This document shows, in pieces, positions 294-56,317 of a DNA stretch of 64,000 nt (position 1 is its first letter; each line of letters starts with the position of its first letter). A model generated the notes under the pieces. The model did no database searches. It had not been told where the DNA came from and worked only from the letters and a program-made list of their open reading frames with translations. This DNA is from Biscogniauxia marginata (lineage: Eukaryota > Ascomycota > Sordariomycetes > Xylariales > Xylariaceae). The stretch is taken from positions 124,001 through 188,000 of the forward strand of contig MU404132.1 of assembly GCA_022695795.1 (NCBI GenBank), in the 5' to 3' direction. Made by a program: the position numbers and the translations under genes.

Positions 294-697
294 TATAACG
301 AACCTCCTTGTGTGTTTCTAGTCAGCTGACTTCACAGGTGAGTACGTACCGGGTTTTCTTGGTTTGAAGGTAACAGTGGGTTGAGATTGGTTTAAGTGAT
401 TTACGATGTTATGTTCGTTAGAGAGGTTTCAAGGTACTCTCACTATAGTATTAAAGAGTGATTATAGTCTTAAATTGATAGCTAAAGAATAAATAACTAG
501 ATATATAAGAAATTCTAATTTATTTATACTTGTTCTTTCTTTATATAAAAACTTTTAAATCATTAAATTATTAATTCTTTATTTATGATTTAATGATTTA
601 TTAAATCATTAAATTATAAATTTTTAATTTATAATTTAATGATTTATTTTAGTTCACGTGACCCACACGTAACATAGTATAAAGAAGGTTTATAATA
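294..697 (-). repeat. E2 3' LTR
   Basis: 404 bp, same orientation and length as 14891-15294. The left edge reads tataacgaacc, a RIP-altered version of tgtgacgaacc. It is bordered on the right (698 onward, minus strand reading) by a purine-rich tract, as expected upstream of a 3' LTR. Confidence 0.8.
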
Positions 698-712
698 TTA
701 TTTTTCCTTTTT
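698..712 (-). other. E2 polypurine tract
   Basis: The minus-strand reading is all A and G except for one T, directly upstream of the 3' LTR. Tracts at the same place exist in E1 and E3. It would prime plus-strand synthesis. Confidence 0.5.
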
Positions 713-798
713 AAGAATCTTTGTTTTAAAGATAAAAAAGAGTGTAACTTAATTACTCCTTTTTTGGTTATTAGTGAGTTTTTTATTCTTATTTTAAC

Positions 799-1312
799 AT
801 GTTTTATCGAGTTATAAAGAACCGTAAAGAAATTCCCGAAGTTTTTCGTCGTGCCTAGAAACAGGTTAAAAACAAATTAGCTTTAATGGACGTAGTTATT
901 TTTAAAGGTCGAAAGGAAATGCCTTGTTTTTACTGCGATCGTAACGGGAAGGAATGTATTGCTTTAAACGAATTTAACTGTTATAGTGAGTATATTTGGA
1001 TGAACCGTACTCGATGTGACGTTTTTGGCATTTCTAGGAGTAGTATAACCGAGATCACTAATTAGTTCCAAAAAATCGAAAACGAATTAAAAGAAGCTAA
1101 AACATGTTAAGAGGCTACGATGATTTGTGTTTGTCGCCTTTATACTTAACATCGTTTTTAGTCCGAAAAGTTAAGAAAAATGATTATACGCGGTTTAAAC
1201 TTTATTGAGGAGTAAAAACGTATTAAGCGCGAAGAAAAAAAACAAAAACGTCTTGTTAAAAAATCATAACGTATAGAGGGATTATAACGTTAATTTGAAT
1301 CTTCGTAGGATC
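799..1312 (+). pseudogene. E2 accessory ORF, antisense to pol: Zn2Cys6-like cluster with basic coiled coil
   Basis: Reads left to right from an ATG at 799, opposite to E2 pol, between the pol end and the 3' LTR. The segment starting MPCFYCDRNGKEC has Cys spacing C-x2-C-x6-C-x8-(C)-x2-(C)-x7-C, the spacing of a fungal Zn2Cys6 binuclear cluster. The fourth and fifth Cys are Tyr here, a TGT/TGC-to-TAT/TAC change expected from RIP. A charged helical region rich in Lys, Arg and Glu follows. The frame continues past the E1 insertion into bases from 8830, so its tail overlaps the end of pol tail to tail. Several CAA-to-TAA stops break it. I recognise it as an ORF seen in related fungal retroelements. 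Its function is unknown to me. Confidence 0.6.
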
Positions 1313-1728
1313 TGTTACGGATCTCGTGTTCCCCCCCCCCTCTACGTGCAGGTCACGTGAGCAAAATATGAATTAGTGAATCATGGGTAAATAAAAGTCG
1401 ATTTATTGATTCAAGGTGAATCAGTGAATCATGGGTAGACAAGAAGCGATTCATTAATTTAACAAGTTTATGTGAAAGAAGAACAAGTATAAGTAAATTG
1501 GAGTTTCCTTATGTATCTAGTTATTCATTCTAGTTCCTTAGCTATTAATTTAAGATTATAGTCACTTTTTAATACTATAATGAGAGTACCTTGAAACCTC
1601 TTTAACGAATATAATATTGTGAATCCTTAAATTAATCTCAACCCATTATTACCTTTAAATCAAGAAAACCTAATACGTACTCACTTGTAAAGTCAGCTAA
1701 CTAGGAATACACAAGGAGATTCGTTACA
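1313..1728 (+). repeat. E1 5' LTR
   Basis: 416 bp, TGTTACGG to CGTTACA, matching 8408-8824. It has a run of ten C at about 1330. The U3 part contains two similar units of about 47 bp, each with gaatcatgggta. A TATA-like tataag is at 1488 and the proposed R start agctattaa at 1540-1548. Confidence 0.85.
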
Positions 1729-1730
1729 TT

Positions 1731-1739
1731 TTAATAGCT
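1731..1739 (+). promoter_or_regulatory. E1 self-priming type primer-binding site
   Basis: ttaatagct, two bases after the 5' LTR, complementary over nine bases to agctattaa at 1540-1548 in the LTR. No TGG-start tRNA-type primer site is visible here. The same pairing and two-base gap hold in E2. Confidence 0.5.
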
Positions 1740-1805
1740 CTTTAATTAATGTTTAACATTGGTTTAAGAAGAGGGATTTTCAGTCGAAACAATCTTAAGA
1801 CAAGC

Positions 1806-4800
1806 ATGCCCCCTAAAACCAGAAAGTAACAAGAAAAGAAACAAGTAAAAGAACAACAATTAATAAGCTTTTAAACGAAAGCTTTAAGTCCTTTTACGAT
1901 ATAATTAAAAAGTTTAAAGGAACTAACACAAAAGTCCATTATAATTATAGCTAAAAAAGAGTCACAAGAGGACCTCTTAAAAGATTAACAAAAAAAAGCA
2001 TTTAAGAAAGAAAAAGAAAAGAAGGAAAAAATACCTAAAGAAAAAGACAAATAAGCAAAACAACCCTAACTACCCTTAAACAATAACAACCTTAACAACT
2101 CGGACGACGACGATAATATAACAACTCCCGATATAAAGGGTTTTAAACTAATTACACTTAATAAATATAATAGGTTAAGCGATTTAAAAAGATTTTTAAT
2201 TTAAGCTAGAACCTATTTACGGTTCTATTATAAAACGATTACCACTAAAAAACAAAAGGTTTTCACGGTATTCCAGCTCCTCGCCGAAACCGCCTTAACC
2301 TAGTTTCAACCAGTGTTAAAGAATTATCTAGAGAACAAATCAAACGCCCAAAAAACACGAAAAAAATCTTTAAAAATTATAAGGAGTTTAAAAAACAACT
2401 TAGGTCTATATTCGGCAATTTAATTCTCAAGTAACAAATCGAAGCTCGACTTCATAAATTACAACAAAACAAAAAGGCTTTAAATTACGCTATTAAGTTC
2501 AAAAAACTCGCAAGTTAATTATAATTACTTATTAAAAGCCTATATTACTTGTTTTATTAAGGGTTAAAAAACCATATAAAGAATAAATTATATAAAACAA
2601 ACCTATATAAAGAAAGGAACCTAGGGAAATTTAATAACTACGTTATAATGGCAATTGCTATTAATAACGAGAACTTCGAACGGTACCTTAAAAAGAAAAA
2701 GACGGTATAACGAAAAAGTGGCGACCAGCTTAAAAAAGGAAATCATAGAAGCGGTACTAAAACTAGAAAAGGCACGAGAATAAAGTCAAATCCCATTAAA
2801 ATCAACGTTATTCAAAAAAAACGAAAAAAACGAGATAAATTAACCATTAAATGTTTCAATTATAAAAAAAAAAGACATTATAAAAACGAGTGCCGAAGTC
2901 CTAAGAAATAAGAACTAAGAATAAGAGGGATTCCTTAACTTGAGAAAAGAGTCATCGAAGTAAAGGTTTAATTTAAAAACAATAAAGAAATAAACCAAGT
3001 ATTTATTATTAACACCATTAAGGCAGAAAAAATTAAAGAGGCTTTTACAGAAAAAATTTATGGATTTTATTAAGTTAACCGCAAAGAATGCCTAAAGGAT
3101 AACTACTCGTATTTAAAACATTTTACATTAAAACAAGTTAAATAAAAATATAACGAAAACGAATTACTATATATATGCGATAATTATAAAATAAGATATA
3201 ACTTAGGAATTAAATTAAACCATAGTGATTTACATTAAAGCCACTATAAAAACGATAAATGCGAAACTTATTAAGAGAAAAGCCAACATAATAACTTAAA
3301 TTAAAGGCTTTATATAAATAATAATTATAATATCTATTAGAGCTTAAAGGAATATATATCGTTACATTAAAGCTTTTATATTAATAACGTTTGTTAAGTA
3401 TATAAAAGTTTTAAGAATAAAGCCGGTTATTATTCTTAAGAACTAAAGAGTAACGACATAAAAGAAAATAAGTGCATCTACGATAACACCCCACGATAGC
3501 CACATTACCCTAAAGCATATTATCTTCACTTAAGCTCTAAAAGAAGCTATAAAGCAATGGCTAAAGGTTACATGTGTTATATCTCGATACTATGCGACGT
3601 ACATAACTTACTTAAAGCAGGTTTCAAAAAAGACAAGATTAAGGAAGAATTATGAGAATTATAAAAGGGACTATATTTTCTATAATGGCTTAAAGAACGA
3701 ACTAAATACGATATTAATTTATTCGGCTTTATAAGAAAACACTTAATAAAGTAGCAAGTAAAAACACATGCGATTAAATAAGGCTATAAACGAATCACTA
3801 AAGCATATCTTAAGAAAAGAGGAAAGCTCCCAAAAATCAATATAAACTTAAAAAGAGACATCGAGATATCTTTAATAAGTAGACTTAATAATTACTTTTT
3901 TTATTTAAGAATAATCTAAAACTTCAAAAAATTCTAAGTTAATAAAACGGACTTAGGTTATAAAAGGGCCCTCGAAAAAAAATTAAAGTTTTAATATATA
4001 AGATTTTATATGAAAAATAAACCTTTCACCTTTTATTACGTAAAAAGTAATTAAAGAGATTATTTAAGTAATAATTACTAGAAACACGCTTTTATAAAAG
4101 CCTAAGAATAGAAAGACATCCGGGTTATAATAACTAAAAAAAAAACCAAAAGGGAAGGGATGTGGAAAACTAAAAAACGGCAAAAGCTTTCGCTAATAAG
4201 GTAGCGAGAAGCCATAAATAATAAGTCTTTATATAAAGTCTAGTCGGGACTTAATAACACTATTATAACTAGAGTCGGGTATAATAAAAGGGAGTATAAA
4301 GCCTTAATAAATTCAAAAGTAAATAAAAGCTATATCTTAATAAAGGTAACTTAAAAAGATAGAATATTATAAGTATATAAACAAAATCCGTATAAGTTAT
4401 AAAACTTTAAAAGAAACATATTTAGTTACGAAAATAGTAAAGTGCTAAAAGAAATAATTCCTTTTTTAATAACTATTTAAAAACATTTTAAACAAGTTAT
4501 CCTTAATATTATATATATATTAAATCACGATATAATCTTAAAAATGAATTAACTTAAAAAAAGTAATTTATAAATAAATTTCGAGATAAATATACTTTAT
4601 TAAGATTAAAAACAAGAGGAGTTAACCGCTACAAGTTACGAAATAAGTACCGCAAATAACTCCAAAGAAACGAATATAAAAACGAAATATATCACCTATA
4701 TAATTCGAGTAACTAAACCTAAAAATCCAACGAAGAAAGTACTATGTAAGTACCTCCGTTTCCACAAATTATTCAAAGATAAAACAAAAAAAGAATTATT

Positions 4801-7789
4801 AAAACATAGCTAATAAGACCACTAAATCCACTTTAAAGAAGGAAAACAACTAAAATTATTCTTAGTATATCTTATAAATCAAGAAAAACAAAGAGCACTA
4901 TAAAAAAGAATCCAGGAGGATCTCGATAAAGGATATATTTAAGAATTCGAATCTTCGTCAAGATACCTGGTAATTATGGTACCCAAAATCGATAAAAACG
5001 GGAAACAACGTATCGATAAAAAAAGAAACTTAATATAAAAACGAGTAATTAATTACTAATACCTTAATAAAATAACCAAGAAAAACGAGTATTCGTTACT
5101 ACTAATGAAACTTATAAAGGGATAAATTAATAAAGCTTAAATCTTTATAGTATTAAACCTTCGCAATAAATACTATATAATTAAAATAGCTAAGAGATAC
5201 GAATAATATATAGCTTTTCGAACGATATATAGATATTATAAGTATAAAGTTATATTATTTAGACTTATTAACGCATTCACTACATTTTAATATATAATCA
5301 TAATAGTTTTTTGTAAGTTTTTAGATAAATTTGTATTTATTTATTTAAACGATATATTAATTTACTCAGAAAACGAAAAGGAACATAAAAAACATATAAA
5401 GTAAATGTTGGAAACCTTGAAAAAGGCAAACTTACTTATTTATTTAATTAAAAGTAAATAATATATTAAGAAATTAAACTATTTAGGGTTTATAATAAGT
5501 CTAGGAGAAATTCGTATTTAAAAAGGAAAAATAGTAATAATTAAGGATTAATTAAAACCCAAAAATGTTATAAACGTACGCGCATTTCTTAGCTTTATTA
5601 ATTATATTAAATAACTTATCAAAAATTTCAGGCGTATCGCTAAACTATTAATAAAACTAACTACCCTAGCAAAAACAAGAGAGGCTTTCCATTTCATTAA
5701 AAAAGCCAAACAAGCTTTTCAACAGCTAAAGGAAGTCGTAACCAGTGAGGTTATATATAAACTTCCAAATAAAAATAAAAAAAAACAATTAAAAACAAAC
5801 GCCTTAGATTTCGCCATTAAAGTAATCCTAAAGCAATTAAAAAACAATAAGAAATAATACCTAGTCGCGTACTTATCTAAAGCACTATATAGTGCTAAAT
5901 TAAACTATTAGATTTATAATAAGGAATTATTAGTAATTATTAAAGCATTAAAAAAATGGGAACTATAACTTAACAGAACTAAGGAACCTATTAACATTTA
6001 TTTAAACCATAAAAACCTTACATGATTCATAATAACACAAACGCTTAACCAAAGACACAAGTGTTAAATAATTTTCTTGTCTAGATTTAATTTCAGAATC
6101 CAGCACATTAAGAGAAAGGAAAACATTTAAGTAGATCTTTTTAGCAAAAAGGGAGATTATAAATTAAAAATCAATAAAAGAAATGTCTAGATGTTTAAAC
6201 AACAAAATAACAAATTAATTATATTAACTTATATACGAATTAATATAGAAAACTAAAAATAATGTTTCAAGGAAAATTACAATCAAAAAGAAAAACAATT
6301 ATAATCTTAATAAGGATCTAACGATAAACTTCTCTTATATAAAGAAAAGGTATATATATTAAAATAAGTGCAAAACGAATTCGTCAAAGAATTTCATAAA
6401 TATCCTCTACATGGCCACTAAGGGATTTTTAAAACGGTGAAACGACTTCAAAAGGAATTCAATTTTCCAGAAATATAACAAATAATTAAAAGAATTATAA
6501 AGAATTATAATATTTATAATAAAGCTAAAGCATCACGACATAAACCATATAAACTATTACAATTAACCTAAATACTTAACAAAGCATGAAATATAATTAT
6601 ATAGGACTTCGTAATGAAACTTTTAAAGTCAAAAGATCTTATAATAGAAGTACATTATAACAACATATAAATAATTGTTAATAAACTCACGAAATACGCC
6701 TACTTTTTACTATTTAACGAATTAAGCATAGCAAAATAATTAATTTTCAGCTTCTTAAAAAAGTATATTAATAAATATGGATTACTAAAACGCATTATTT
6801 CAAACAAAAACAAACTATTTACATTAAAGTTTTAAACTAGCTTAATAAAACGAATAGGAATTAAGTAAAAGCTATTTACAACGTACCATCTTTAAACAAA
6901 CGAATAAACAAAAAGGCTCAACTAAATACTTAAATAATACCTCAAAAGTTATATTAACTAGCAAATAAACAATTAAATAAAATTATTACTTATGACCCAA
7001 GTCGCATATAATACATTAATTAACGAAGACATAAAGCTATCACCATATAAAGCGGTGTATAACTAAAAAGCAAAAATCTACAAAAAACCGTTCGGACTTA
7101 TAAAAGCATCAAATACCACAATAATAACTTCTTAAATAAAAGTATTATTTAAAAAGATCTAAGTAACATAAATAAAGCTATAAAAAGAACTATAATTCAT
7201 TTAAAAAAGAATAACTAAATACTATAATAAAAAGAAAATTAAGGAACCAATTCTTAAAAAAGGAAACATAATTTATTTACTCCGCTAAAGACAAAGCGTA
7301 ACAATAAAAACGCCCTAAATTAAAACAAAACGACCTAGCAAGAAACTCAAATTTAAGAAATTAAGACCTTATAAAATTAAAAAAGTTATTTCGAAAGTTA
7401 ATTACAAACTCTCGCTACTAAAAAGATCTAAAATACATCTTATATTTCATATTTCGCTTTTAAAACTAATACTAAAAAACACCTCGCCGAAAAAACAATT
7501 AGAATTTAAAAAGAATCTTAATAAGTACGAAATCGAAAAAATACTAAATTCAAGAAAAGTTAACAATTAATTACAATATCTTATTAAATAAAAAAGTTAT
7601 TTACTCGAGGAAAATACTTAAAAACTTCTTAAGCATTTAAAGAACTTAATAAATAAAATTAAGGATTTTCACCGCCAAAATCTAAACCGGTTAAGAAGGC
7701 TTAAATATCGAGATCTTAATCTTGTTAAGGAAAATCAAGGAAGGAAAAAAGGTAGGCCTCGGAAATAAATAAGTTTTATAAAGATTTAA
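1806..7789 (+). pseudogene. E1 gag-pol polyprotein, RIP-destroyed
   Basis: ATG at 1806 (MPPKTRK). Gag carries a CCHC knuckle remnant near 2846-2900 (CFNY for CxxC, then H and C in place). Protease is not clearly seen. Reverse transcriptase covers about 4950-5500, with YLND for YLDD and the following ILIYSEN intact. RNase H follows at about 5750-6150, integrase at about 6370-7250, and a chromodomain near 7520-7700 with a hydrophobic/aromatic pattern and a basic GRPRK tail. CAA-to-TAA stops occur throughout. Two possible stops lie at the end (7766 and 7787). The first aligns with a Gln codon in E2, so the true end is probably 7789. Confidence 0.82.
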
Positions 7790-8330
7790 GTTAACGCTAT
7801 AATCCCTTTATACGTTGCGATTTTTTAATAAGACGTTTTTATTTTTCTTCCTCGCGCTCGACGCGCTTTAATTCTTTAATAGAATTAAAACCTTAAGTAA
7901 TTATTCTTTATAACTTTTTAAACTATAGGCTTTTTTATATCCGGAAACGACGCGCCTTATTTATAGTTATTACCGCCTTACTTATAGCCTCCTTAGTTGC
8001 GACATCCGCCTTTTCCAGGTTCGCCTTAACCTTTTAAAACTGCTTAGTAATTTTAACTACACCTTTACGCGAAATACTAAAAACGTTATAACGAGTACGG
8101 TTTAAACGAATATACTTTAAGTAGCGGTCTAAATCTTTAGAAGCCACATACTCCTTTCCAGAATTTTCATAATAAGAACAAGCTATTTCCTTTTTCCCGT
8201 TTAAAGCGACTAACCTTAAAAAAGCAGCCTTGTTTTTTACTATTTTTTCGGCATGTCGCGAAGTGTTAAAAGTTTCTTTTCAGGTTTTAGTTATGCGGTG
8301 AGATATAATAAAAAAATAAAGCTAAGAAAC
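7750..8330 (-). pseudogene. E1 accessory ORF, antisense to pol: Zn2Cys6-like cluster
   Basis: Located between pol and the 3' LTR on the opposite strand. The translation near 8195 begins CSYYENSGKEY. Positions equivalent to the six cluster Cys keep the spacing x2, x6, x8, x2, x7, but all except the first are Tyr, as RIP would produce. A basic helical region follows, ending in repeated KK and RR pairs. The 3' end converges on and overlaps the pol end. Boundaries are approximate because the start codon is not preserved. Confidence 0.55.
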
Positions 8331-8392
8331 TTAAAAAAGGTAACAAATAAGACTTTTTTAGACCCTCTTTTATCTTTAGGACAAAGATCCTC

Positions 8393-8407
8393 AAAGGGGA
8401 AGAATAA
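8393..8407 (+). other. E1 polypurine tract
   Basis: Purine-rich run (aaggggaagaataa) directly before the 3' LTR. The same motif occurs beside the E3 3' LTR on the minus strand at 48915 onward, which supports the LTR boundary. Confidence 0.6.
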
Positions 8408-8824
8408 TGTTACGGATTTTGTGTTCCCCCCCCCCCTTTACGTGCAAGTCACATAAGCAAAATATGAATTAATAAATCATGGGTAAATAAAAGTTAATTT
8501 ATTAATTTAAGGTGAATTAATAAATCATGGGTAAACAAGAAGCGATTCATTAATTTAACGAGTTTATATGAAAAAAGAACAAGTATAAGTAAATTAGAGT
8601 TTCCTTATGTATCTAGTTATTCATTCTAGTTCTTTAGCTATTAATCTAAAACTATAGTCACTCTTTAATACTATAGTAAGAGTACTTTGAAACCTCTCTA
8701 ACGAACATAACATTGTGAATCCTTGAACCAATCTCAACCCACTGTTACCTTCAAATCAAGAAAACCTAGTACGTACTCACCTGTGAAGTCAGCTGACTAG
8801 GAATACACAGGGAGGTTCGTCACA
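8408..8824 (+). repeat. E1 3' LTR
   Basis: 417 bp, matching 1313-1728, with a longer C run near 8430. It ends GTTCGTCACA at 8824, followed by the target duplication ggatc. Confidence 0.85.
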
Positions 8825-8829
8825 GGATC

Positions 8830-11800
8830 TACTTGCTTTCGAGGCTTACCCTTTTTCTTTCCTTAATCTTTCCCAGTAAAATTAAGACTTCGATATCTAG
8901 GCCCTCTTAGCCGGTCTAGATTTTGGCGGTAAAAATTCTTAATTTTATTTGTTAGGTTTTTTAAATGCTTAAAAGGTTCTTAAGTATTCTTTTTAAGTGA
9001 ATAAACTTCCTACTTAACAAGATATTATAGCTAATTATTAACTTTCTTTAAATTTAATATCTTTTCGACTTCGTATTTATTAAGGTTTTCCTTAAATTTT
9101 AATTGTTTTTTTAGCAAGGCGTTTTTTAGTGCTGGTTTTAAGAGCGAAATATAAAATATAAAATGGATTCTGGATTCCTTTAATAATGCTAGCTTGTAAT
9201 TAACTTTCGAAATAACCTCTTTAATTTTATATAGTTTTAATTTCTTAAATTTAAGTTTTTCGTTAGGTCGTTTTGTTTTGATTTAAGGTGTTTTTAATGT
9301 TGCGTTTTGTCGTTAGCAAAGTAAGTAAATTATATCTCCTTTTTTAAGAATTAGTTCTTTAATTCTTTTTTTATTATAGTACTTTGTTATTTTATCTTAA
9401 ATAAATTGTAATTCTTTTTATAGCTGTTATTATACTACTTAGATCTTTTCGGATAGTACTTCTACTCTCGGGGCTTTTATCTTGATTTTTAGCGCTTTTG
9501 TGAGTTTAATCGGTTGTCTTTAAGCTTCCGCTTTTTATCTGTACACTGCCTCGTATAATAACATCTTCATATTTTCGTTAATCGAAGTGTTATATATTAT
9601 TTGGGTTATTAGTAATAATTTTACTTAGTTGTTTATTTCTTAATTAATATAGCTTTATAAATATTATTTTATTATTTGGTTTAGTTTTTTTATTTATTCG
9701 TTTGTTTAAGGGTAATACGTTATAGATAATTTTTATTTAATTTTTATTCGTTTTATTAAGTTAATCCAAAATTTTAACGTAAATAATTTGTTTTTGTTTA
9801 AAATAACGCGTTTTAGTAATCTATATTTACTAACATATTTTCTTAAGAAACTGAAAACTAATTATTTTATTGTGCTTAATTCGTTGAATAATAAAAAGTA
9901 GGCGTATTTCGTGAGTTTATTAACGATTATTTATATGTTGTTATAAGGTACTTTTATAGTAGGATTTTTTGACTTTGAGAGTTTTACTACGAAGTTTTAT
10001 ATAATTATATTTTATGCTTTGTTAAGTATTTAGGTTAATTATAATAATTTATATGGTTTATATCGTGATGTTTTAACTTTATTATAGATATTATAATTCT
10101 TTATAATTTTTTTGACTGTTTATCGTATTTTTAGAAAGTCGAATTCCTTTTAAAGTCGTTTCACCGTTTTGAAAATCCCTTGGTAACCATGTAAAGGATG
10201 TTCGTGAAATTCTTTAACGAATTCATTCTGTACTTGTTTTAATATATATACTTTTTCCTTATATGAGAGAAGTTTATCGCTGGATCCTTATTAAGATTGT
10301 AATTGTTTTTCTTTTTAATTGTAATTTTCTTTAAACTGTTATTTTTATTTTTTTATGTTAATTCGTATGTAAATTAATATAACTAATTTGTCATTTTGTT
10401 GTTTAAACATTTGGATATTTCTTTTGTTGATTTTTAATTTATAATTTCCTTTTTTGCTAAGAAGATTTGTTTAAATGTTTTTCTTCCCTTTGATGTATTG
10501 AATTTTAAAATTGAATTTAAACAGGAAAATCATTTAACGCTCGTGTCTCTGGTTAAGCGTTTATGTTATTATAAATTATGTAAGGTTTTTGTGGTTTAAA
10601 TAAATATTGATAAGTTCCTTGATTTTGTTAAGTTATAGTTCCTATTTTTTTAATGCTTTAATAACTGCTAATAGTTCCTTGTTATAAATCTAATAATTTA
10701 ATTTAGTACTATGTAGTGCTTTAAATAAATACGCGACTAGGTATTATTTCTTATTGTTTTTTAATTACTCTAGAACTGCTTTAATAGCGAAATCTAAAGC
10801 GTTTATCCTTAATTGTTTCTTTTTATTTTTATTTAGAAGTTTATATATAACCTCACTAGTTATAATTTCCTTTAACTGTTAAAAAGCTTGTTTAACTTTT
10901 TTAGTGAAATGAAAAGCCTTTTTTGTTTTTATTAAGGTAGTTAGTTTCGTTAATGGTTTAGCGATACGCCTAAAATCTTTAATAAATTATTTGATATAAT
11001 TAATAAAACCAAGAAATGCGTATATGTTTATAACATTTTTAGGTTTTAGCTAATTCTTAATTGTTGTTATTTTTCTTTTTTAAATGCGAATTTCTCTTAA
11101 ACTTATTATAAACCTTAAATAATTTAGTTTTTTAATATGTTATTCATTTTTAGTCGAATAAATAAGTAGGTTTATCTTTTCTAGGGCTTTTAATACTTGC
11201 TTTACATGTTTTTTATATTTCTTCTTGTTTTTTAAGTAAATTAATATATTATCTAAATAAACAAATACAAATTTATCTAAAAACTTACGAAGAACTGTCA
11301 TAATTATATGTTAAAATGTAGCGGGTGCGTTAATAAGTCTAAATAGTATAACTTTATATTTATAATGTTTATATATCGTTTAAAAAGCTATATATTGTTC
11401 GTGTCCCTTAGCCATTTTAATTATATAATATTTATCGCGAAGATCTAATACTATAAAGATTTAAGCTTTACTAATTTATCCTCTTATGAGTTTTATTAAT
11501 AATAACGAGTATCCGTTTTTTTTGGTTATTTTATTAAGGTGTTGGTAATTAATCACTCGTCGCCATACTAGGTTTCCTTTTTTATCGACATGTTACTTCT
11601 CGTTTTTATTAACTTTAAGTACTATAATCGCTAGGTATCTTAACGAGAATTTGGATTCTCGAATATATCCTTTATCGAGATCCTTTTAAATTCCCTTTTA
11701 TAATACCCTTTGTTTTTCTTGATTTATAAAATATATTAAGAATAATTTTAGCTGTTTTCCTTCTTTAAAGTATATTTAGTGATCTTATTAGTTATATTTT

Positions 11801-14800
11801 AGTAATTCTTCTTTTATTTTATTTCTAAATAATTTGTGGAAATAAAAGTACTCGCGTGGTACTCTTTTCGTTAAATTTTTAGGTTTAGTTACTCGAATTA
11901 TATAAGCGATATGTTTCGTTTCTATATTCGTTTCTCTAGAGTTACTTGCGGTACTCATTTCGTAACCCGTAATAATTAACTCCTTTTGTTTTTAATCTTA
12001 ATAAAGCGTGTTTATCTCGAAATTTATTCGTAAATTACTTCTTTTAAGTTAATTTATTCCTAAGATCATATCGTGATTTAATATATATATAATGTTAAAA
12101 ATGACTTATTTAAAGTGTCTTTAAATAATTACCAAAAAAGGGATTATTTCTCTTAACACTTTACTATTCTCGTAATTAAATATGTTTCCTTTAAAGTTTT
12201 ATAACTTATATGGATTTTATTTATATACTTATAATATTCTATCTTTTTAAACTACCTTTATTAAGACATAGCTTTTATTTACTCCTAAATCTATTAAGGC
12301 TTTATACTCCCTTCCATTATACTTAACTCTAGTTATAATAGTGTTGTTAAATCCCGATTAGACTTTATATAAGGACTTGTTATTTATGGCTTTTCGCTGC
12401 TTTATTAACGAGAGCCTTTGCCGTTTTTTGGTTTTCCATGTCCCCTCCTTTTTAGTTTTCTTTTAATTGTTATAGCCCGGATGTTCTTTTATTTTTGGGC
12501 TTTTATAAAAACGTGTTTCTAGTAATCATTACTTAAATAATCTCTTTAATTACCCTTCACGTAGTAAGGGGTGAGAGGTTTATCCTTTATACAAAATTTT
12601 ACATATTAAAACTTTAATTCTTTTTCGAGAGCCCTTTTATAGCCCAAGTCCGTTCTATTAACTCGGAATTTCTTAAAGTTCTAAATTATCTTTAAATAAA
12701 AAGAGTAATTACTAAGTTTACTTGTTAAGGATATCTCGATATCTCTTTTTAGGTTTATATTGATTTTTAGGAGTTTCTCTCCTTTTTTAAGGTATACCTT
12801 AATAATTCGTTTATAGCCTTATTTAGTTACACGTGTTTTTACTTACTACTTTATTAAGTGTTTTCCTATAAAGCTAAACAAATTAATGTCGTATTTAGTT
12901 CGTTCTTCGAGTCATTATAAAAGATGTAATTCCTTTTATAATTCTTATAATTCTTTTTTAATCTCGTTTTCTTCGAAACCTGCTTCGAGCAAGTCGTATA
13001 CGTCGTATAGTATCGAGGTGTAACATATATAACCTTTAGCCATTACTTCATAGCTTTTTTCGGAGTTTAAGTGAAAATAATATGTTTTAAGGTAATATAA
13101 CCATCGTGAGGTGTTATTATAAATACACTTATTTTCTTCCGTGTTATTACTCTTTAGTTTTTAAGAATAATAACCGGCTTTATTCTTAAAACTTTTATAT
13201 ACTTAATAAACGTCGTTAGTATAAAAGCTTTAATATAACGATATATGTTCTCTTAAGTTTTAATAAATATTATAATTATTATTTATATAAAGCTTCTAAT
13301 TTAAGCTATTATACTAGCTTTTCCCTTAATAGGTTTCGTATTTATCGTTTTTATAGTGGCTTTAATGTAAATCACTATAGTTTAACTTAATTCCTAAGTC
13401 GTATCTTAACTTGTAATTATCGCATATGTATAGTAATTCGCCCTCGTTATATCTTTGTTTAACTTGTTTTAATGTGAGATATTTTAAATACGAGTGGTCA
13501 TCTTTTGAGTAGTTTTTACGGTTAACTTAATAAGATCTATAAATTCCTTTTACAGGAGCCTCTTTGATTTTTTCTGCCTTGATAGTGTTAATAATAAATA
13601 CTTGGTTTATTTTTTCGTTATTTTCGAATTAAACCCTTACTTCGGCGACTTTTTTTTTAGGTTAAGAAATCCCTTTTATTTTTAGTTCTTGTTTTTTAGG
13701 ACTTCGGCACTCGTTCTTATAATGTCCTTTTTTTTTATAGTTGAAACACTTAATGGTTAATTTATCTCGTTTCTTTCGTTCTTTTTAAATAACGTTAATT
13801 TTAATGGAATTTGACTTTGTTCCTATGCTTTTTCTAGTTCCGGCACCGCTTTTGTGATTTCCTTCCTTTAGCTAGTTACCATTCCTTCGTTGTACCGTCT
13901 TTTTCTTTTCAAGGTACCGTTCGAAGTTTTCGTTATTAATAGTAATTACTATTATAACGTAATTATTAAACTTTCTTAGGTTCCTTTCTTTATATAGGTT
14001 TGTTTTATATAACTTATTCTTTATATGGTTTTTTAACCTTTAATAAAATAAATAATATAGGTTTTTAATAAGTAATTATAACTAGCTTACGAGTTTCTTA
14101 AACTTAATAACGTAGTTTAAAGCCTTTTTATTTTGTCGTAGTTTATAAAGTCGAGCTTTGGCTTATTACTTAAGAATTAAATTACCGAATATAGACTTAA
14201 GTTGTTTTTTAAATTCTTTATAATTTTTAAAGACTTTTTTCGTGTTTTCTCGGGCGTTTGATTCGTTTTCTAAATAGTCTTTTAATACTGGTTAAAACCA
14301 GGTTAAAGCGGTTTCGGTTAAGAGTTAGGATATCGTGAGAATCTTTTGTTCTTTAGTGGTAATCGTTTTATAATAAAACCGTAAGTAGGTTCTAGCCTAG
14401 ATTAAAAATCCTTTTAGATCGCTTAACCCATTATATTTACTAAGTGCAATTAATTTAAAACTTTTTACGTTAAGGGTTATTATATTATTTTCATCGTTTA
14501 AGTTGTTAAGGTCGTTATTGTTTAAGGGTAATTACTTATTTTTAAGAGGTAGGGTTTATTTTGCCTATTTATTTTCTTTTTTAGGTATTTTTTCTTCTTT
14601 TTCTTTTTCTTTTTTTAATGCTTTTTCTTGTTGATTTTCCGAGATGTCCTCTTATGACTCTTTTTTAGTTATAATTATAATAAATTCTTGTGTTGGTTCT
14701 TTTAAACCTTTTTGTTATACCGTAAAAAGATTTAAAGTTTTCGTTTAAGAGCTTATTAATTATTGTTTTTTTACTTGTTTCTTTTCTTGTTACTCTTTAG

Positions 14801-14813
14801 TTTTAAGGGGCAT
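8830..14813 (-). pseudogene. E2 gag-pol polyprotein, RIP-destroyed
   Basis: Begins with an ATG at 14813 (MPLK-like N-terminus). It runs through a gag region with a zinc-knuckle remnant, reverse transcriptase (YLDN for YLDD near 11,250), RNase H, integrase with a HxxxH/CxxC-like zinc-binding segment, and a C-terminal chromodomain ending in a basic tail (GKPRK) beside 8830. Domain order RT, RNase H, integrase, chromodomain identifies a chromovirus-type Ty3 element. Frequent in-frame TAA and TAG codons at expected Gln and Trp positions show RIP. E1 is inserted at the tail of this gene. Confidence 0.8.
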
Positions 14814-14879
14814 GCTTGTCTTAAGATTGTTTCGATTAAAAGTCCCTCCTTTTAAACCAATATTAAGCACTAATTAAGA

Positions 14880-14888
14880 AGCTATTAA
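14880..14888 (-). promoter_or_regulatory. E2 self-priming type primer-binding site
   Basis: Minus-strand ttaatagct, two bases inside the 5' LTR. It is perfectly complementary to agctattaa within the same LTR (15072-15080). Tf1/sushi-group Ty3 elements are known to prime from the 5' end of their own mRNA. Use of this site is inferred. Confidence 0.45.
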
Positions 14889-14890
14889 AA

Positions 14891-15294
14891 TGTGACGAAC
14901 CTCCTTATGTGTTTCTAGTTAACTAACTTCATAAGTAAGTACGTACCAGGTTTTCTTGGTTTGAAGATAATAGTGGGTTAAGATTGGTTTAAATAATTCA
15001 CGATGTTATATTCGTTAAAGAGGTTTTAAAATACTTTTACTATAGTATCAAAAAGTGACTATAGTCTTAGATTAATAGCTAAAGAATGAATAACTAAATA
15101 CATAGGAAATTCTAATCTACTTATACTTGTTTTCCCCTCACATAAAAACTTTTAAATTATTGAATTACTAATTCTTTATTTATGATTTAATAATTCATTA
15201 AATTATTAAATTATGGATTCTTAATCCATGATTCAACGATTTATTCTGGTCCACGTGACCCACACGTAACACAGCATAAGGAAGGTTCATAACA
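14891..15294 (-). repeat. E2 5' LTR
   Basis: Partner of 294-697. Read on the minus strand it starts TGTTATGAACC and ends GTTCGTCACA. The nonamer agctattaa that would begin R (complement at 15072-15080) is complementary to the primer site at 14880-14888. Confidence 0.8.
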
Positions 15295-15299
15295 CTAGT

Positions 15300-15576: not shown

Positions 15577-16459
15577 ACGTGTCTTATAAGCGAGTGGGCC
15601 ACTGTCACGAACCAACCAGGGTAAGCAATCAAGTGACAGGGGTACTGTTCCCACTCTTCTTGCGTCCGGCTCGGACATGGATCCTGAAAGGGAAGGCGAC
15701 CTATTGTCACGTGATATGGATGAGTGTGGATGAGACTCATCCAACAGTATCCAGTGGAGAATAGATAAGTATGGATAAGACTCATTTAAAGGTATCCAAC
15801 ATACCAATTATGGGGAATGAAAAACAAAATAACAAGTATAAAAAGGATAAGATTTCCTATGTGTCTAGTCATTCATTCTAGTTCTTTAGCTATTAATTTA
15901 ATACTATAGTCACTCTTTAATACTATAGTGAAAGTACCTTGAAATCTCTCTAACGAATAAAGCATTATGAATCTCTTGAACCCATCTTAATCCATTATTA
16001 CCTTTAAATCAAGAAAACCTAGTACGTACTCACCTATGAAGTCAGCTGACTAGGAACACACAGGAAGGTTCGTCACAGCCACTTGATTTCCTATATAAAA
16101 TCGACTTTTTCGAAAATTTATAACTTTGCACGTAAGAATCGTAAAAATCTCGGACCTTTTTCATTAGTTATATAACTATACGGTTTAATTAAAAATAAAA
16201 TCGAAAAAATTAATTTCAAAAGACGCAAAAAGAAAACGTGTAAAAACTAAAATTAAAATAAAATATATAAACCTTTTTATATATATTTTTTATATATGTC
16301 ATTTTTATTTTTTTGATTTTATTTTTAATTAAACCTTATAATTATATAACTAAAAAAAAGGTTTAAGATTTTTAAGATTTTTACGTGTAAAGTTATGAAT
16401 TTTTGAAAAAGTCGATTTTATATAAAAAATTAAGTGGCTTACTCGCTTATAAGACACAT
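15577..16459. mobile_element. non-autonomous inverted-repeat element (MITE 1), split by a solo LTR
   Basis: The ends acgtgtcttataag and cttataagacacat are inverted and flanked by TA (15575-15576 and 16460-16461). With the solo LTR removed, the left arm resumes at 16083 and mirrors the right arm for about 165 bp, making the roughly 400-bp element almost entirely a foldback. The outer bases match the pogo element ends, so it may have been moved by that transposase. It has no coding capacity. Confidence 0.7.
15603..16077 (+). repeat. solo LTR of the same Ty3 family inside MITE 1
   Basis: 475 bp from TGTCACG to GTCACA, with the target duplication gccac at 15598-15602 and 16078-16082. The right half is nearly identical to the E1, E2 and E3 LTRs. 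The left half is a different, more GC-rich U3 with two related units of about 45-50 bp containing gtatccaaca/gtatccagtg. A good TATA box (tataaaaagg) lies near 15838, about 55 bp before the conserved agctattaa. It was left behind by LTR-LTR recombination. Confidence 0.8.
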
Positions 16460-16460
16460 T

Positions 16461-17900
16461 AATATTAATAAAAACTCGAATAACTTATATAGTTAAATAT
16501 AAATAATATTATTCGAGAATAAGTTATTATAAATTAATAATACTTTATAATATCCTTTATATAATATTATAAAAACGAAATAACGATATATTTATATTAT
16601 TAATTTAAATAATTAGTTATTTTTTTCTCGTTTAAGTTATATTATTATAATAATAAACTTTTTATTATATAAACGTAATATAAAGCGAGTTAAAAAAAAC
16701 TAAACTTTTAATTTCGTATAATAATAAAAATCATTATAAACGCGTTTAAATAAATAAATAAAAAGCTTTATATAAAAACTTAAATATATCGAAAATAGTT
16801 TAAATTAATACGTAAAACGATTACGAAATATAAAATTTTAAAAGAAAATATATATAATTTTAACGAGACAAGATTTATACTTAAAATAATTATTTAAATT
16901 ATTAATAATATTATTTATTATATTAATAAAAAATATTTAACTTTATAATATTATAATAATTTATTATTACGAAAAAATAAAGTTAAAATATTAAATAATA
17001 ACTAAATAATAAATAAATTTAATATAAAATTTATAAAGCATTTTAACTTTTATATTAAAAATTAAATACGAGGTTTTAAATACTTATTAATTTTAAATAG
17101 TTATAAAAGTTATTATTTTATAAAATTTTAAAAATGTTATAAAAACTTAATATTATTATATTTTATATATTTAATTATTTATTATATAAATTATAACCTT
17201 TTAACTTTATATATTTTAATATTTTTAAAAAGATATATAATAATTATTTAAAAAATTTAATAAAATGTTATTATTATTATATTATAAAAAAACTTTTTAA
17301 TTAACTTTATAAAAATATTTATCATTATAATAACTATTTTAAATATAACTATAAATTAAGTTTTATATAATTAAATTAATTCTTTTTAATTTTAAAATGT
17401 TATTATTATATTACTTTTTATATAAAAAATACGTATATTTTTTCTCGACTTTAATATAAATTAAGTATTTTAAAAAACTAAAATATTTATAATAACTCGC
17501 AAGGTATTATTATAATTTAATTTTATTATAAATAAAATTAAAAAGCATTAAAAATTCTTTTATAAATATTATAAATATTTATAACTAATTTATAAAAACT
17601 AATTTATTATTAATATATAAAATAGTTTTATTATAAATTAAATTATATTTTTAATAAATAACATAAAACTATAAATAAATAATTATAAATAAAAAACATT
17701 TAATATAAAAAAAGAAATAACTTTATAAGTTAAAAAGAATAATATTATAATTAATAATAAAGAAAAAAGGTCTCGAAAAAATAATAATAATTAAACGGAA
17801 ATAATATAATATATATATTTATATAACAAATAAAAATATAATTAATAACATTTATATAATAAATAAAAAGGAATTTAATAATTTAGATTTTAAAGAGTTA
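16461..17900 (+). pseudogene. pogo/Fot1-family DDE transposase, RIP-destroyed
   Basis: The plus strand shows the C-terminal landmarks of a Fot1/pogo transposase in degraded form. The block usually read as LILDGHxSH appears as LILNSYKSY near 17,090, so the second catalytic Asp is Asn and His codons have become Tyr. A block equivalent to NGWTNNEFG precedes it, with its Trp codon turned to a stop. It is followed by the LQPLDV-like block in another frame (LxPFNFIYF), so at least one indel is present, and by a Lys-rich tail. Many TAA codons stand where CAA is expected. The N-terminal DNA-binding half is too eroded to delimit, so the boundaries are approximate. It cannot encode a working enzyme. 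Confidence 0.6.
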
Positions 17901-18229
17901 TAATTAATTTTATTTATTATTAATTCTTTATTTTAATTTTAAAGGGCTTTAACTCGAAAAATATAATAAATTAATTGATTTAAATCACGCGTTAAAAAAC
18001 CGAATACTTAATATAAAAAAGGTATTTAATTTTTAAAGCGTAATATCAAGGTATAAATATAAAGACGTAAAGATAAGGTTATTATAATTGCAATTTATAA
18101 GATAAATTAATAAGTTAAAGAAAAAAGAAACTATTTACAATTTATACGTGTAGGTTACGAGGTATTTAAGTATTATAACCCCACTTATAAGCACGTGAAA
18201 TAAGATATAAAGGTATATAATAAGTTACG

Positions 18230-18379
18230 TTATAATATATAAAACTAAAAAAACGATTTAAATAATAATAATAATTAATTAATTTTAATATCGCGTAAAT
18301 GTTTTTTAATAATTAAAACTACGAAAATTATAAAAATTAACTTACTTATTTATATAGCTTATTTACTTATAAAACATGT
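18230..18379 (-). repeat. right terminal inverted repeat of the pogo element
   Basis: Its reverse complement matches 250-293 joined to 15300 onward. It ends at a TA dinucleotide (18380-18381). The outermost bases are shared with both small inverted-repeat elements in the window. Confidence 0.7.
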
Positions 18380-18381
18380 TA

Positions 18382-18620
18382 TTTTAAATTTAATTTTTTT
18401 TAGTTTTATATAATAAATATAACCACTTTATTTTATATATTATTAAAATATTAATACATTTTTTTTTAAATATTTCGAAGATATAACTTTATTATATAAG
18501 ATATATAATAATTATGAGGCGTAAATAAAGGTGTTATATTATTATGCCTCATTTTATATGGCCGTTAACAAAAAAGGCTTATACGCGACGTGCAGTCCCC
18601 TTGCCTCAGTTTAATATTAT
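18382..18620. other. AT-rich spacer
   Basis: Low-GC sequence after the pogo right end, changing at about 18540 to balanced composition. No gene or repeat edge is recognised. Confidence 0.5.
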
Positions 18621-18623
18621 CAG

Positions 18624-18956
18624 CTATATCACCACTATGAGATATAGGCTCGCTATTAAGTGTAGGCACGAAGAGCCATTTTCTTGCCTTAATTCTAAGG
18701 TGATCTCAGCTATGTAGCCCTTAAAGACAGCTCTCAACCATTTTAGAAGGTATAACCTCACCCGGGCTACCATTACGTCGGCGGCGATATTCTCGGTGCT
18801 CGTCGCATTGAAAATCTCGACTAGTGAACTAAGCCTAACTTCACAAACTCCTTGCTTGCTAGGTTTTGTGCCGTGCCTATTGCCAGTGGCAGACTGGACA
18901 TTTACTAGGACAGAGCCAAGGATGATGTGTAAAGTCGATCTTGAAGACATAAACAT
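18624..18956 (-). CDS. unrecognised ORF, 110 aa
   Basis: An open frame in a balanced-GC island between repeats. The product has an Arg/Leu-rich middle (VARVRLYLLKWLRAVF) and a hydrophobic C-terminus. I see no known domain, signal peptide or intron signals. It may be a fragment of an older gene or chance. It is listed because it is the only substantial frame in the island. Confidence 0.2.
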   Translation of the reverse strand: MFMSSRSTLHIILGSVLVNVQSATGNRHGTKPSKQGVCEVRLSSLVEIFNATSTENIAADVMVARVRLYLLKWLRAVFKGYIAEITLELRQENGSSCLHLIASLYLIVVI

Positions 18957-19160
18957 GGCTTGAAGTCTTCAAAGAAACTAATAACTAACTAATAATGATG
19001 CGTGCACTAAGTATAAATATTGATTTTTATTTAGATAACTATGACTAAGGAGTTTGAAGGTGAACTATATGCCTAGTTGCGCAAAATTCTGCTAATGAAG
19101 ATATTTGGATGGGATATAATATCATTTGTGGCTTGCGTTGATCAACGACCCAACAAGGAA

Positions 19161-19242
19161 TCCTCCGTGGCGCAATTGGCTAGCGCGTCTGACTGTTATA
19201 AAGCAAATCAGGAGGTTGACAGTTCAAGCCTGTCCGGGGGAG
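19161..19242 (+). tRNA. tRNA-Asn (anticodon GTT) with an 8-nt intron
   Basis: The acceptor stem pairs tcctccg (19161-19167) with cggggga (19235-19241). The D arm is gcgc-loop-gcgc. The anticodon stem is tctga/tcagg. The T arm is gacag-ttcaagc-ctgtc. The anticodon loop is ctgtta, then an extra taaagcaa, then a. Removing eight bases after position 37, the canonical tRNA intron site, restores a seven-base loop with anticodon GTT. The body matches fungal tRNA-Asn. The acceptor stem contains one T-G pair. An overlapping protein frame across this gene is a by-product. Retention of good stems between RIP-damaged repeats suggests it is functional or recent. Confidence 0.8.
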
Positions 19243-19251
19243 TAAAATGTT

Positions 19252-19260
19252 TATTTTTTT
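19252..19260 (+). terminator. RNA polymerase III terminator of the tRNA gene
   Basis: A run of T beginning about ten bases after the tRNA 3' end, the standard Pol III stop signal. Confidence 0.6.
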
Positions 19261-19416
19261 TGCCTATTTCCCCCAAGAATTTCCTTTTTTTGGCCCGCTT
19301 AGCTCCCGTAATAAGTATAAAGACCCACATCAATAAATAAAGCCATAATCATATTAACCTTTTATATAAAAGTTTTATATATAAAATAAAATAAAATAAT
19401 AATATTAATATATATA

Positions 19417-19889
19417 ACGTGTTTTATAAGTAAATAAGCCATATAAACAAGTGGGCTATTTAATTTCCTATATAAAATCGACTTTTTCAAAAATTCATAA
19501 CTTTATACGTAAAAATCGTAAAAATCTCGAACCTTTATTTTTAGTTATATAATTATACGGTTTAATTAAAAATAAAATTAAAAGAATTAATATTAAAAAA
19601 TATAAAAAGAAAACGCGTAAAAACTAAAATTAAAATAAAACATATACACTTGTTTATATATTTCTTCGTATATTTAATTTTATATTTTTTCGATTTTTAT
19701 TTTAGTTATACTATATAATTATATAACTAAAAGAAAGATCCGAGATTTTTCCGACTTTTACGTGTAAAATATTGGGATAGGGCAAGCGTTTGTCTTGCTT
19801 TATCCCTCTCTCATAGGAATACACTGGTTGTACCTAGCTTGCCTTCTCGACGTGACAGCTTGTTTTGTTTACTCGCTTATGTGGTACGT
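19417..19889. mobile_element. non-autonomous inverted-repeat element (MITE 2)
   Basis: The ends acgtgttttataag and cttatgtggtacgt are flanked by TA (19415-19416 and 19890-19891). The inner arm starting atttcctatataaaatcg is shared with MITE 1. The outer 45 bp also match the pogo left end (250-293). The right arm is interrupted near 19770-19870 by about 100 bp of unrelated sequence containing a hairpin (gggatagggcaag / cttgctttatccc). Confidence 0.65.
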
Positions 19890-48509: not shown

Positions 48510-48914
48510 TGTGACGAACCTCCCTGTGTATTCCTAGTCAGCTGACTTCACAGGTGAGTACGTACTAGGTTTTCTTGATTTAAAGGTAATAGTGGGTTAA
48601 GATTGGTTTAATTGATTTACAATGTTATGTTCGTCAAAGAGGTTTCAAGGTACTCTTATTATAGTATTAAAGAGTAACTATAGTCTTAAATTAATAGCTA
48701 AAAAACGAGAGACTAATTACACAAGGAAATTCTAATTTACTTATACTCGTTTTTCCTTTTATATAATTCACTAAATAATTGAATTATAAGTTGCCCTACC
48801 TACTATTTATATATTCACTAAATAATTGAATCGTAGGTTACCCCACCCATTATTCATATATTCGATAGGGTTATGTGCACGACACTCGTTTCCCACTTTA
48901 AGAGTCTCGTAACA
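48510..48914 (-). repeat. E3 3' LTR
   Basis: 405 bp. It is 47 bp longer than its partner because the U3 unit beginning ttcactaaataattgaat is present twice. Confidence 0.8.
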
Positions 48915-48930
48915 TTATTCTTCCCCTTCG
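48915..48930 (-). other. E3 polypurine tract
   Basis: Minus-strand cgaaggggaagaataa immediately upstream of the 3' LTR, the same motif as in E1. Confidence 0.55.
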
Positions 48931-49017
48931 AGAATCTTTATCTCAAAAATAAAAAGAGGGTTAATTATCCTTCCCTCCGATTTGTTAAGAGGTCTAAGCC
49001 TTCTTTAACTTAGTTTA

Positions 49018-49575
49018 TAATATCTTATTATATAATAAAACTTCGTAAAGAAAATTCCAATATCTCGTGTCGGGCCGAGAAACAAGCTAAAAACAAGATA
49101 GCTCTTTTAAATTTTATTACTTTTTATAATAAAAAAAAGATAACTTATTTCTACTACGAACGTAATAAAAAAGATTATATTGCTTCGGAGGATTTTAATC
49201 GTTATATAAAATACATAAAATTAAGTTAATCGCGATATAACGTGTTTAATATCTCGCGAAAGAGTATATTTAAAATCACGAAACAGTTTTAAAAGGTCGA
49301 GGCCGAGCTCGAAAAAGCGGAATCCCATTATAAGATTGCTCGTGCTACTAAGGAGGCAGCTATAAACCGCATTTTGCGCCTTAAGACCAAGCGTAAACTA
49401 TAATCAAGTAAACTTCGTAAAATGGTTACTTAGGGTCTTAATTCTATAAAGGATTTAAAGCGTGTTAAGCGTAAAAAAAAAGAATAGAAACGTCTTATTA
49501 AAGAATCGCAACGCATAAAGGGATTACAGTGTTAATCTAAATCTTCATAGAACTTGTTTATTTCCGAGGCCTACC
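49018..49575 (+). pseudogene. E3 accessory ORF, antisense to pol: Zn2Cys6-like cluster
   Basis: Aligned start at about 49018 reads ATA. The cluster region reads YFYYERNKKDY, then RYIKYIKL and RY, keeping the spacing x2, x6, x8, x2, x7, with every Cys turned to Tyr. It is followed by Glu/Lys/Arg-rich helices. The reading frame would continue into 49938 onward if the solo LTR were absent, overlapping the pol end. Confidence 0.55.
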
Positions 49576-49932
49576 TGTTACGAGACTCTTAAAGTGGGAA
49601 ACGAGTGCCGCGCACGTGACCCCATCGAATATGTGAATAGTGGGTGGGGTAACCTACGATTCAACTATTCAGTGAATTGTATGAGAGGAAGGACGAGTAT
49701 AAGTAGATTAGAATTTCCTTGTGTAATTAGTCTCTCGTTCCTTAGCTATCAATCTAAGATTACAGTCACTCTTTAATACTATAGTGAGAGTACCTTGAAA
49801 CCTCTCTGACGAACATAACATTGTGAATCCTTGAACTAATCTCAACCCACTGTTACCTCCAAATCAAGAAAACCCAGTACGTACTCACCTGTGAAGTCAG
49901 CTGACTAGGAATACACAGGGAGGTTCGTCACA
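49576..49932 (+). repeat. solo LTR inserted at the end of E3 pol
   Basis: 357 bp, TGTTACG to GTCACA, with the target duplication ctacc at 49571-49575 and 49933-49937. Opposite orientation to E3. It is the least RIP-mutated LTR in the window, so probably the youngest. Its sequence belongs to the E3 subfamily (shared U3). Confidence 0.85.
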
Positions 49933-55882: not shown

Positions 55883-55948
55883 GCTTGTCCTAAAACTATT
55901 TCGATTGAAAGTCCCTTTTCTTAAACCAATATTAAGCACTAATTAAGG

Positions 55949-55957
55949 AGCTATCAA
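55949..55957 (-). promoter_or_regulatory. E3 self-priming type primer-binding site
   Basis: Minus-strand ttgatagct two bases inside the 5' LTR. It is complementary to agctatcaa as seen in the family solo LTR at 49576-49932. In the E3 5' LTR the partner reads agctattaa (56141-56149), leaving one G-U type pair. Confidence 0.4.
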
Positions 55958-55959
55958 AA

Positions 55960-56317
55960 TGTGATAAACCTCCTTATGTATTCCTAGTCAGCTAACTTCA
56001 CAAGTAAATACGTACTAGGTTTTCTTAATTTAAAGGTAATAATAGGTTAAGATTGGTTTAATTAATTTATAATGTTATGTTCGTTAAAGAGGTTTCAAGG
56101 TACTCTTATTATAATATTAAAAAGTGACTATAGTTTTAGATTAATAGCTAAAGAACAAGAAACTAATTACATAAGGAAATTCTAATTTATTTATACTCGT
56201 CCTTCCTTTTATATAATTCACTGAATAGTTGAATCGTAGGTTGCCTCACCCACTATTCACATATTCGATGGGGTTACGTGCGCGGCACTTGTTTCCCACT
56301 TTAGGAGTCTCGTAACA
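55960..56317 (-). repeat. E3 5' LTR
   Basis: 358 bp with one copy of the U3 unit. The left edge reads tgtgataaacc, more RIP-changed than the 3' LTR. Right edge cgtaaca, then the target duplication gtccg. Confidence 0.8.

Follow-up and report, generated by a model that had tools for sequence, protein, structure and literature searches.

Three Ty3/Gypsy retrotransposon insertions, referred to here as E1, E2 and E3, lie within a 64,000-nucleotide stretch of the genome of Biscogniauxia marginata (NCBI GenBank assembly GCA_022695795.1, contig MU404132.1, positions 124,001 to 188,000 of the forward strand), which we call the window. Each carries, between pol and the 3' long terminal repeat (LTR), an open reading frame (ORF) on the opposite strand. 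Our results suggest that one part of this antisense gene has moved between elements together with the U3 segment of the LTR and may encode a regulator of that LTR. The insertions, of which E1 is nested in E2, have 5-bp target-site duplications (TSDs) and show the TG..CA LTR ends, polypurine tract, and RNase H and integrase domains of Ty3/Gypsy elements. The RNase H (PF17919) and Tf2-1-like SH3 (PF24626) matches of E1 exceed the Pfam cut-offs; by eye, the pol C-terminus has a chromodomain-like stretch, which lies outside the part scanned against Pfam, and then a basic tail.

A mutated antisense frame between pol and the 3' LTR

The original prediction held that all three copies encode an antisense accessory protein with the spacing C-x2-C-x6-C-x8-C-x2-C-x7-C and that several of its cysteines have been changed to tyrosine by repeat-induced point mutation (RIP). 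Both claims are borne out, the former far above chance. The positions given for it (799 to 8330) span the antisense frames of E2 and E1. The spacing is present in E1, E2 and E3, in each of which a single protein frame is interrupted by stops, none being open along its full length; four Cys are left in E2, where the other two positions are Tyr, one in E1 and none in E3. Across 54 distinct copies from the genome, all 323 non-gap residues in the six Cys columns are either Cys (113) or Tyr (210), encoded exclusively by TGY or TAY, and such Cys/Tyr-only columns are a signature of RIP. The number of Cys retained per copy ranges from zero, in nine copies, to six in one (L070). Most stops in these copies (196 of 282) are concentrated in six columns, at which Gln or Trp is found in other copies or in relatives from outside this genome, with column Q122 interrupted in 42 copies and W126 in 46. 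A DNA search of this genome (45.3 Mb, 229 contigs) gave at least 42 matches; with an outside relative as query, the number was at least 116 at E <= 0.1. In all, 64 sequences were collected, of which 54 were distinct after removal of duplicates. To speak of three copies is correct in that each has the antisense ORF, but E1, E2 and E3 represent three different clusters of that ORF.

Less mutated members of the family retain both the frame and its cysteines. L070 has an open, shortened frame with all six Cys, L069 an open frame of 230 amino acids with five of the six, and the motif is complete in 113 of the 123 protein relatives examined from outside this genome. L070 (1106-1856) is an internal-deletion derivative in which the start of gag is fused to the first part of the antisense ORF between two LTRs, with a GC content near 0.47 inside against 0.11-0.23 around it. 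L069 (128-859) is a copy at a contig end whose antisense frame is open (GC 0.47-0.50) and whose pol part has stops and a declining GC content.

The position of the ORF is nearly invariant. The pol C-terminus lies on the opposite strand and converges on the ORF at 59 of 62 loci (50 of 53 distinct places), with a gap of 71-92 nt between the aligned parts in 45 of these 59; the three loci not counted are E2 itself (L045), L030, which has no alignable pol, and the deletion derivative L070. On the other side of the ORF, 50 of 54 copies have R-U5. The ORF of E1 has its start at 8306, and the 102 nt that separate it from the inner edge of the 3' LTR include the polypurine tract.

RIP yields transitions only, and transversions between copies therefore reflect older change. 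Transversions in the antisense frame at codon positions 1, 2 and 3 number 17, 12 and 42 between E1 and E3 (chi-square p = 1.8e-5), 18, 9 and 45 between E1 and E2 (p = 4.5e-7), and 18, 7 and 40 between E2 and E3 (p = 2.2e-6). This excess at third positions indicates that the protein encoded by the antisense frame was under constraint before RIP, with past purifying selection on the frame. Within clusters, the three pairs compared differ by 0 to 2 transversions, and the largest cluster, a1, consists of two groups about 3.4% apart.

Zn2Cys6 likeness and relatives in other fungi

Zn2Cys6 domains have the consensus C-x2-C-x6-C-x5..12-C-x2-C-x6..8-C, which fits the window copies and L070. Among the 113 relatives with a complete motif, 83 have seven residues in the first loop (C2-C7-C9-C2-C7-C), 21 have the spacing C2-C6-C9-C2-C7-C, six have that of the window (C2-C6-C8-C2-C7-C) and three have others. 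These relatives came from three alignment searches, which found 3, 6 and 172 proteins; the search that gave six scored its best 7996 candidates, the best 120 of the 172 matches were listed, and 123 sequences were examined overall. Hosts among the matches listed are Rostrohypoxylon, Annulohypoxylon, Cordyceps, Cytospora, Pyricularia, Colletotrichum, Gaeumannomyces, Fusarium, Hirsutella, Metarhizium, Beauveria, Microdochium and Chaetomium, which we take to be Sordariomycetes; many matches have no host name. All are protein records, known here from their protein sequence. A scan of viral_contigs gave 182 pattern matches and no relative.

The assignment to a Gal4-type cluster, as originally proposed, stands in part: the Cys spacing and the following helix agree with it, but profile scores and structure models do so incompletely. 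The Pfam Zn_clus family (PF00172) has a gathering score of 21 bits, which none of the sequences scanned reached (13.3 for P0001, 13.1 for P0002 and 13.9 for L070). With 65 of the 123 relatives entered in alignment A5, Zn_clus matched 10 of 65 at E <= 1, the best E being 0.092. It was not among the Pfam matches of ten RIP-mutated copies; the open 81-residue piece of E1 had no Pfam match, the three window frames gave a single Pfam row at E 9.2, and the E2 frame had no match in NCBIfam. Sequence profile searches of the PDB returned four weak matches (E 0.15-1.1) and six (E 0.033-4.8), and no match carried the name of a Zn2Cys6 protein. Pfam rows such as DUF465 and PHM7_cyt among the relatives were set aside as coiled-coil cross-matches.

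The two structure models disagree. In Foldseek searches all six matches of model 1 were Zn2Cys6 domains; model 2 gave no Zn2Cys6 domain and two unrelated matches at E 7.7. VIA listed Hap1 for both. The long helical region expected after the cluster was recovered as a predicted single helix (residues 78-136), with a predicted local distance difference test (pLDDT) score above 90 over most of it in a model of one chain with no pairing. The tails of the models are of low confidence and look acidic by eye in several relatives. The antisense protein thus resembles Gal4/Hap1-type regulators in the six-Cys spacing of the window copies, in two short predicted helices and in the coiled coil that follows, and it differs from them in its score, in a first loop that is one residue longer in most relatives and less basic by eye. 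As none of the sequences scanned passes the Zn_clus cut-off and the fold evidence is mixed, we consider that the protein is best called Zn2Cys6-like.

Apparent exchange of the antisense ORF and U3 over a common backbone

Over the region from about 1640 to 6720, the transversions that set E1 apart from E2 and E3 stay at or below 1.4% in every 300-nt window and are mostly at 0-0.7%. Among the three elements, the pol C-terminus adjoining the antisense ORF has 2-5 differing sites in 145-149 codons, against 65-72 in 148-155 codons for the ORF itself. Fast protein evolution alone was rejected as the cause of this difference, as third positions differ too, with transversions at 27-30% of them in the ORF and at 1.4-2.1% in the pol C-terminus (Fisher p <= 2.3e-10). 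A map in 60-nt bins places the change: transversions are few (0-3 per bin) at 7765-7884, the last part of the ORF, numerous at 7885-8364, which includes the leader of the E1 ORF up to about 8364, and few again in the bin of the polypurine tract. Within the LTR they are numerous in U3 at 8425-8544, fewer at 8545-8604 and 0-2 per bin afterwards, so that R-U5 is near zero divergence among E1, E2 and E3 and U3 is diverged.

The same pattern is seen across the genome. The median distances between members of one ORF cluster and between members of different ones are 0.007 versus 0.120 for the ORF and 0.021 versus 0.079 for U3, but 0.008 versus 0.012 for R-U5 and 0.029 versus 0.027 for pol. A single pol cluster bears the ORF modules a1 (15 copies), a2 (4) and a4 (10), and another bears a2 (2), a5 (1) and a6 (1); conversely, the a4 sets compared have the same ORF and U3 (0.000 for each) on different pol sequences (0.018). 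Over 47 copies, ORF distance has a Spearman correlation of 0.66 with U3, 0.17 with pol and 0.14 with R-U5. Four of the 54 copies were dropped for want of an R-U5 match, and 47 had all four segments; as E1 interrupts E2, the pol of E2 was compared over 8832-9282.

Proteins from Pyricularia, of which 24 were aligned and eight compared pairwise, indicate a similar boundary. Their N-terminal part (zinc cluster and coil) and C-terminal part are discordant in both directions: P0036 and P0090 are identical at 62 of 92 N-terminal and 93 of 100 C-terminal positions, P0015 and P0053 at 99 of 106 and 82 of 100. This boundary was set by hand at the motif EELDRVEREE, and the matching motif of E1, at 7842-7874, falls in the last of the low bins. 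Taken together, these comparisons show that the diverged sequences are the predicted DNA-binding part of the antisense ORF and, ahead of the putative TATA element, U3; the two mostly travel together over a gag, pol and R-U5 that, one integrase patch apart, are nearly identical in transversions among E1, E2 and E3.

The U3 segments of most groups contain an array of inverted repeats, in which RAAT-N4-RAAT is followed 30-32 nt on by its inverse, once or twice per U3. Of 50 copies, 43 have it, against 0.0 expected from dinucleotide shuffles, and none of 74 control windows of E1 does. In 7 of 11 U3 segments, some of which belong to the same group, the inverted repeat scores above every one of 300 shuffles; it does so in none of six R-U5 controls. 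An E-box-like motif, [CT]ACGT[GA], also occurs in U3 (8408-8824 and relatives), in 42 of 50 copies versus 10.7% in mononucleotide shuffles, and is possibly the site of a host factor. Elsewhere in the element, an integrase patch at 6900-7319 has 26 transversions between E1 and E2, 26 between E1 and E3 and none between E2 and E3; to judge from this pattern, it is another exchange tract.

Possible roles of the antisense protein

We favour, at slightly better than an even chance, the interpretation that the antisense gene encodes a regulator that binds operators in the LTR of its own element and is exchanged with them as a cassette. The product would be a Zn2Cys6-like, coiled-coil and presumably dimeric DNA-binding protein. 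Transcription of the gene most likely begins within the 3' LTR, in U3 and back to back with the element promoter, because the ORF of E1 starts so close to the inner edge of that LTR. The inverted-repeat array is the most likely binding site of the protein, which would control transcription of both the element and its own gene, probably as a brake. The DNA-binding and coiled-coil part, with U3, would form a cassette swapped between elements sharing gag, pol and R-U5, and the last part of the ORF, adjoining pol, would stay with the backbone. The conserved antisense frame, its position, the divergence and discordance of the modules and the U3 array are direct observations; zinc and DNA binding, the promoter, the direction of regulation and the match of protein to U3 are inferred. 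A regulatory role gains indirect support from the joint exchange of ORF and U3 and from the operator-like array, as a shared tail and backbone combined with a variable DNA-binding part and U3 is the trace expected of a regulator/operator cassette.

Several observations weigh against this interpretation. The array is absent from seven of the 50 copies (L015, L021, L020, L028, L070, L036 and L071), and the inverted-repeat score of E1 was reached by 29 of 300 shuffles, that of L071 by 37, that of L043 by 6 and that of L070 by 1. Because the 43 copies with the array are related, only U3 groups can be counted as independent, and as the U3 segments are diverged but alignable, common descent may explain the array. 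Linkage of the neighbouring ORF and U3 could also cause their joint exchange without any function. The low correlations of ORF distance with pol and R-U5 were reached by just 0 and 1 of 200 permutations, and U3 and the antisense ORF are uncoupled in L056/L046 and L024/L025.

It is also conceivable, if distinctly less probable, that the protein binds DNA but acts elsewhere, for example in steering integration, on host genes or against silencing. The joint exchange would then reflect the physical linkage of ORF and U3, which adjoin in the genomic RNA, and template switching between pol and R; the coupling of ORF and U3 also has the exceptions just mentioned. However, the array holds its 30-32-nt geometry while U3 diverges, and the part that diverged, in the Pyricularia proteins as in the window, is the DNA-binding and coiled-coil part and not the tail. 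We regard as less probable again that the protein is an activator of its own LTR promoter, with cassettes that differ in the conditions that switch them on. Zn2Cys6 proteins are often activators, and the low-confidence tails of the models, acidic-looking by eye in several relatives, would suit this role, but expression of the element would probably be reduced by transcription antisense to pol.

Two further explanations were rejected. A host transcription factor gene, picked up fortuitously by the element as a passenger, could have come from a genome that has 117 Zn_clus matches; it is nevertheless very improbable given the identical place and orientation at 59 of 62 loci, the purifying selection and the spread of relatives over many genera. 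Stops break every copy in the window, as they would in a chance open frame or an artefact of RIP, but the Cys/Tyr-only columns, the codon-position bias and the existence of relatives with open frames leave that explanation a negligible probability.

Antisense regulators are known from retroviruses. The bZIP (basic leucine zipper) protein HBZ is encoded by the retrovirus human T-cell leukaemia virus type 1 (HTLV-1), whereas a Zn2Cys6-like cluster and a coiled coil are found here, in a fungal retrotransposon. Modular LTRs have also been described, in the Tnt1 elements, which differ from the present family in being Copia. HBZ is similar in being a nuclear regulator whose gene lies antisense, close to the 3' LTR. 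The available part of a report that names HBZ describes plant Gypsy elements, Retand, in which nearly all recent copies have antisense TRP28 ORFs between pol and the 3' LTR, predicted to bind DNA and suggested to have a role in transcription, with function unknown (PMC11963269). This resembles the window family in the position of the antisense ORF and its maintenance across copies, but Retand is a plant non-chromovirus lineage with a TRP28 domain, and that part describes no exchange of U3. In the Tnt1 superfamily the coding region is conserved and U3 is modular and hypervariable; the portion of the report available describes no element-encoded regulator that moves with U3 (PMC1838419). We found no report of a fungal antisense zinc-cluster ORF, or of its combination with a modular U3, among titles and the openings of abstracts, a coverage that mostly omits subscription journals. 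In the present family, an antisense ORF comes with a probable DNA-binding domain, with an array in the LTR that is a candidate for its binding, and with module exchange. Whether the protein regulates its own element hence becomes directly testable, by comparing binding to its own U3 and to a foreign one.

The immunity regions of lambdoid phages, in which a repressor gene moves together with its operators, as a single module, on a shared backbone, may offer a counterpart. The likeness is by analogy only, as repression and immunity are known for the phages and here the modules are known from sequence. We propose tentatively, and think it rather unlikely as a whole, that an antisense repressor and its U3 operators form non-cross-reacting classes, swapped on a common gag-pol backbone, so that an element of a new class would evade the brake of resident copies. 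If each protein binds its own U3 and not another's, self-limitation and the switching of immunity class would belong to the biology of retrotransposons across a large fungal group.

Table 1. Positions of the elements in the window and of the features discussed (nucleotide 1 is the first of the window)
Feature	Position	Strand	Remarks
E1, Ty3/Gypsy	1313-8824	+	Self-blastn and junction reading; TSD GGATC (1308-1312, 8825-8829)
E1 LTRs	1313-1728 and 8408-8824		
E1 pol C-terminus (integrase SH3, chromodomain-like end)	7319-7768	+	Converges on antisense ORF
E1 antisense ORF	7800-8306	-	Stop-broken; end as far as located
E1 antisense ORF, diverged (exchanged) DNA-binding and coiled-coil part	7885-8306	-	5-24 transversions per 60-nt bin
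E1 six-Cys stretch	8088-8180	-	One Cys, five Tyr
E1 polypurine tract	8393-8407	+	Conserved; 2-3 of 60 transversions in its bin
E1 U3 upstream of TATA	8408-8582	+	Cluster-specific; divergence mainly 8425-8544
E1 U3, first inverted-repeat pair (RAAT-N4-RAAT, +31, ATTY-N4-ATTY)	8466-8508		Position derived by hand
E1 U3, second inverted-repeat pair	8514-8556		Position derived by hand
E1 putative TATA element, GTATAAG	8583-8589	+	Conserved R-U5 starts near it
E2 3' part (3' LTR and antisense ORF)	294-1312	-	Interrupted by E1; TSD CTAGT (289-293)
E2 antisense ORF	799-1266	+	Stop-broken; end as far as located
E2 six-Cys stretch	925-1017	+	Four Cys retained
E2 5' LTR, gag, and pol as far as E1 insertion	8825-15294	-	TSD CTAGT (15295-15299)
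E3, with two LTRs	48510-56317	-	Solo LTR inside; TSD GTCCG; self-blastn and junction reading
E3 antisense ORF	49020-49532	+	Stop-broken; end as far as located
E3 six-Cys stretch	49146-49238	+	Six Tyr; end derived by hand
Solo LTR within E3, at pol/antisense-ORF boundary	49576-49932	+	TSD CTACC (49571-49575, 49933-49937)

The insertion points of E1 in E2 and of the solo LTR in E3 are, by eye, within about 25 nt of each other at the boundary between pol and the antisense ORF. These are independent insertions, with differing TSDs, and each is opposite in orientation to its host element; the near-identical site may reflect a target preference or chance. Beside E2 lies a very AT-rich stretch (16000-19800), with a GC content of 0.085 at 17001-18000, which contains a pair of repeats at 16083-16391 and 19460-19768.

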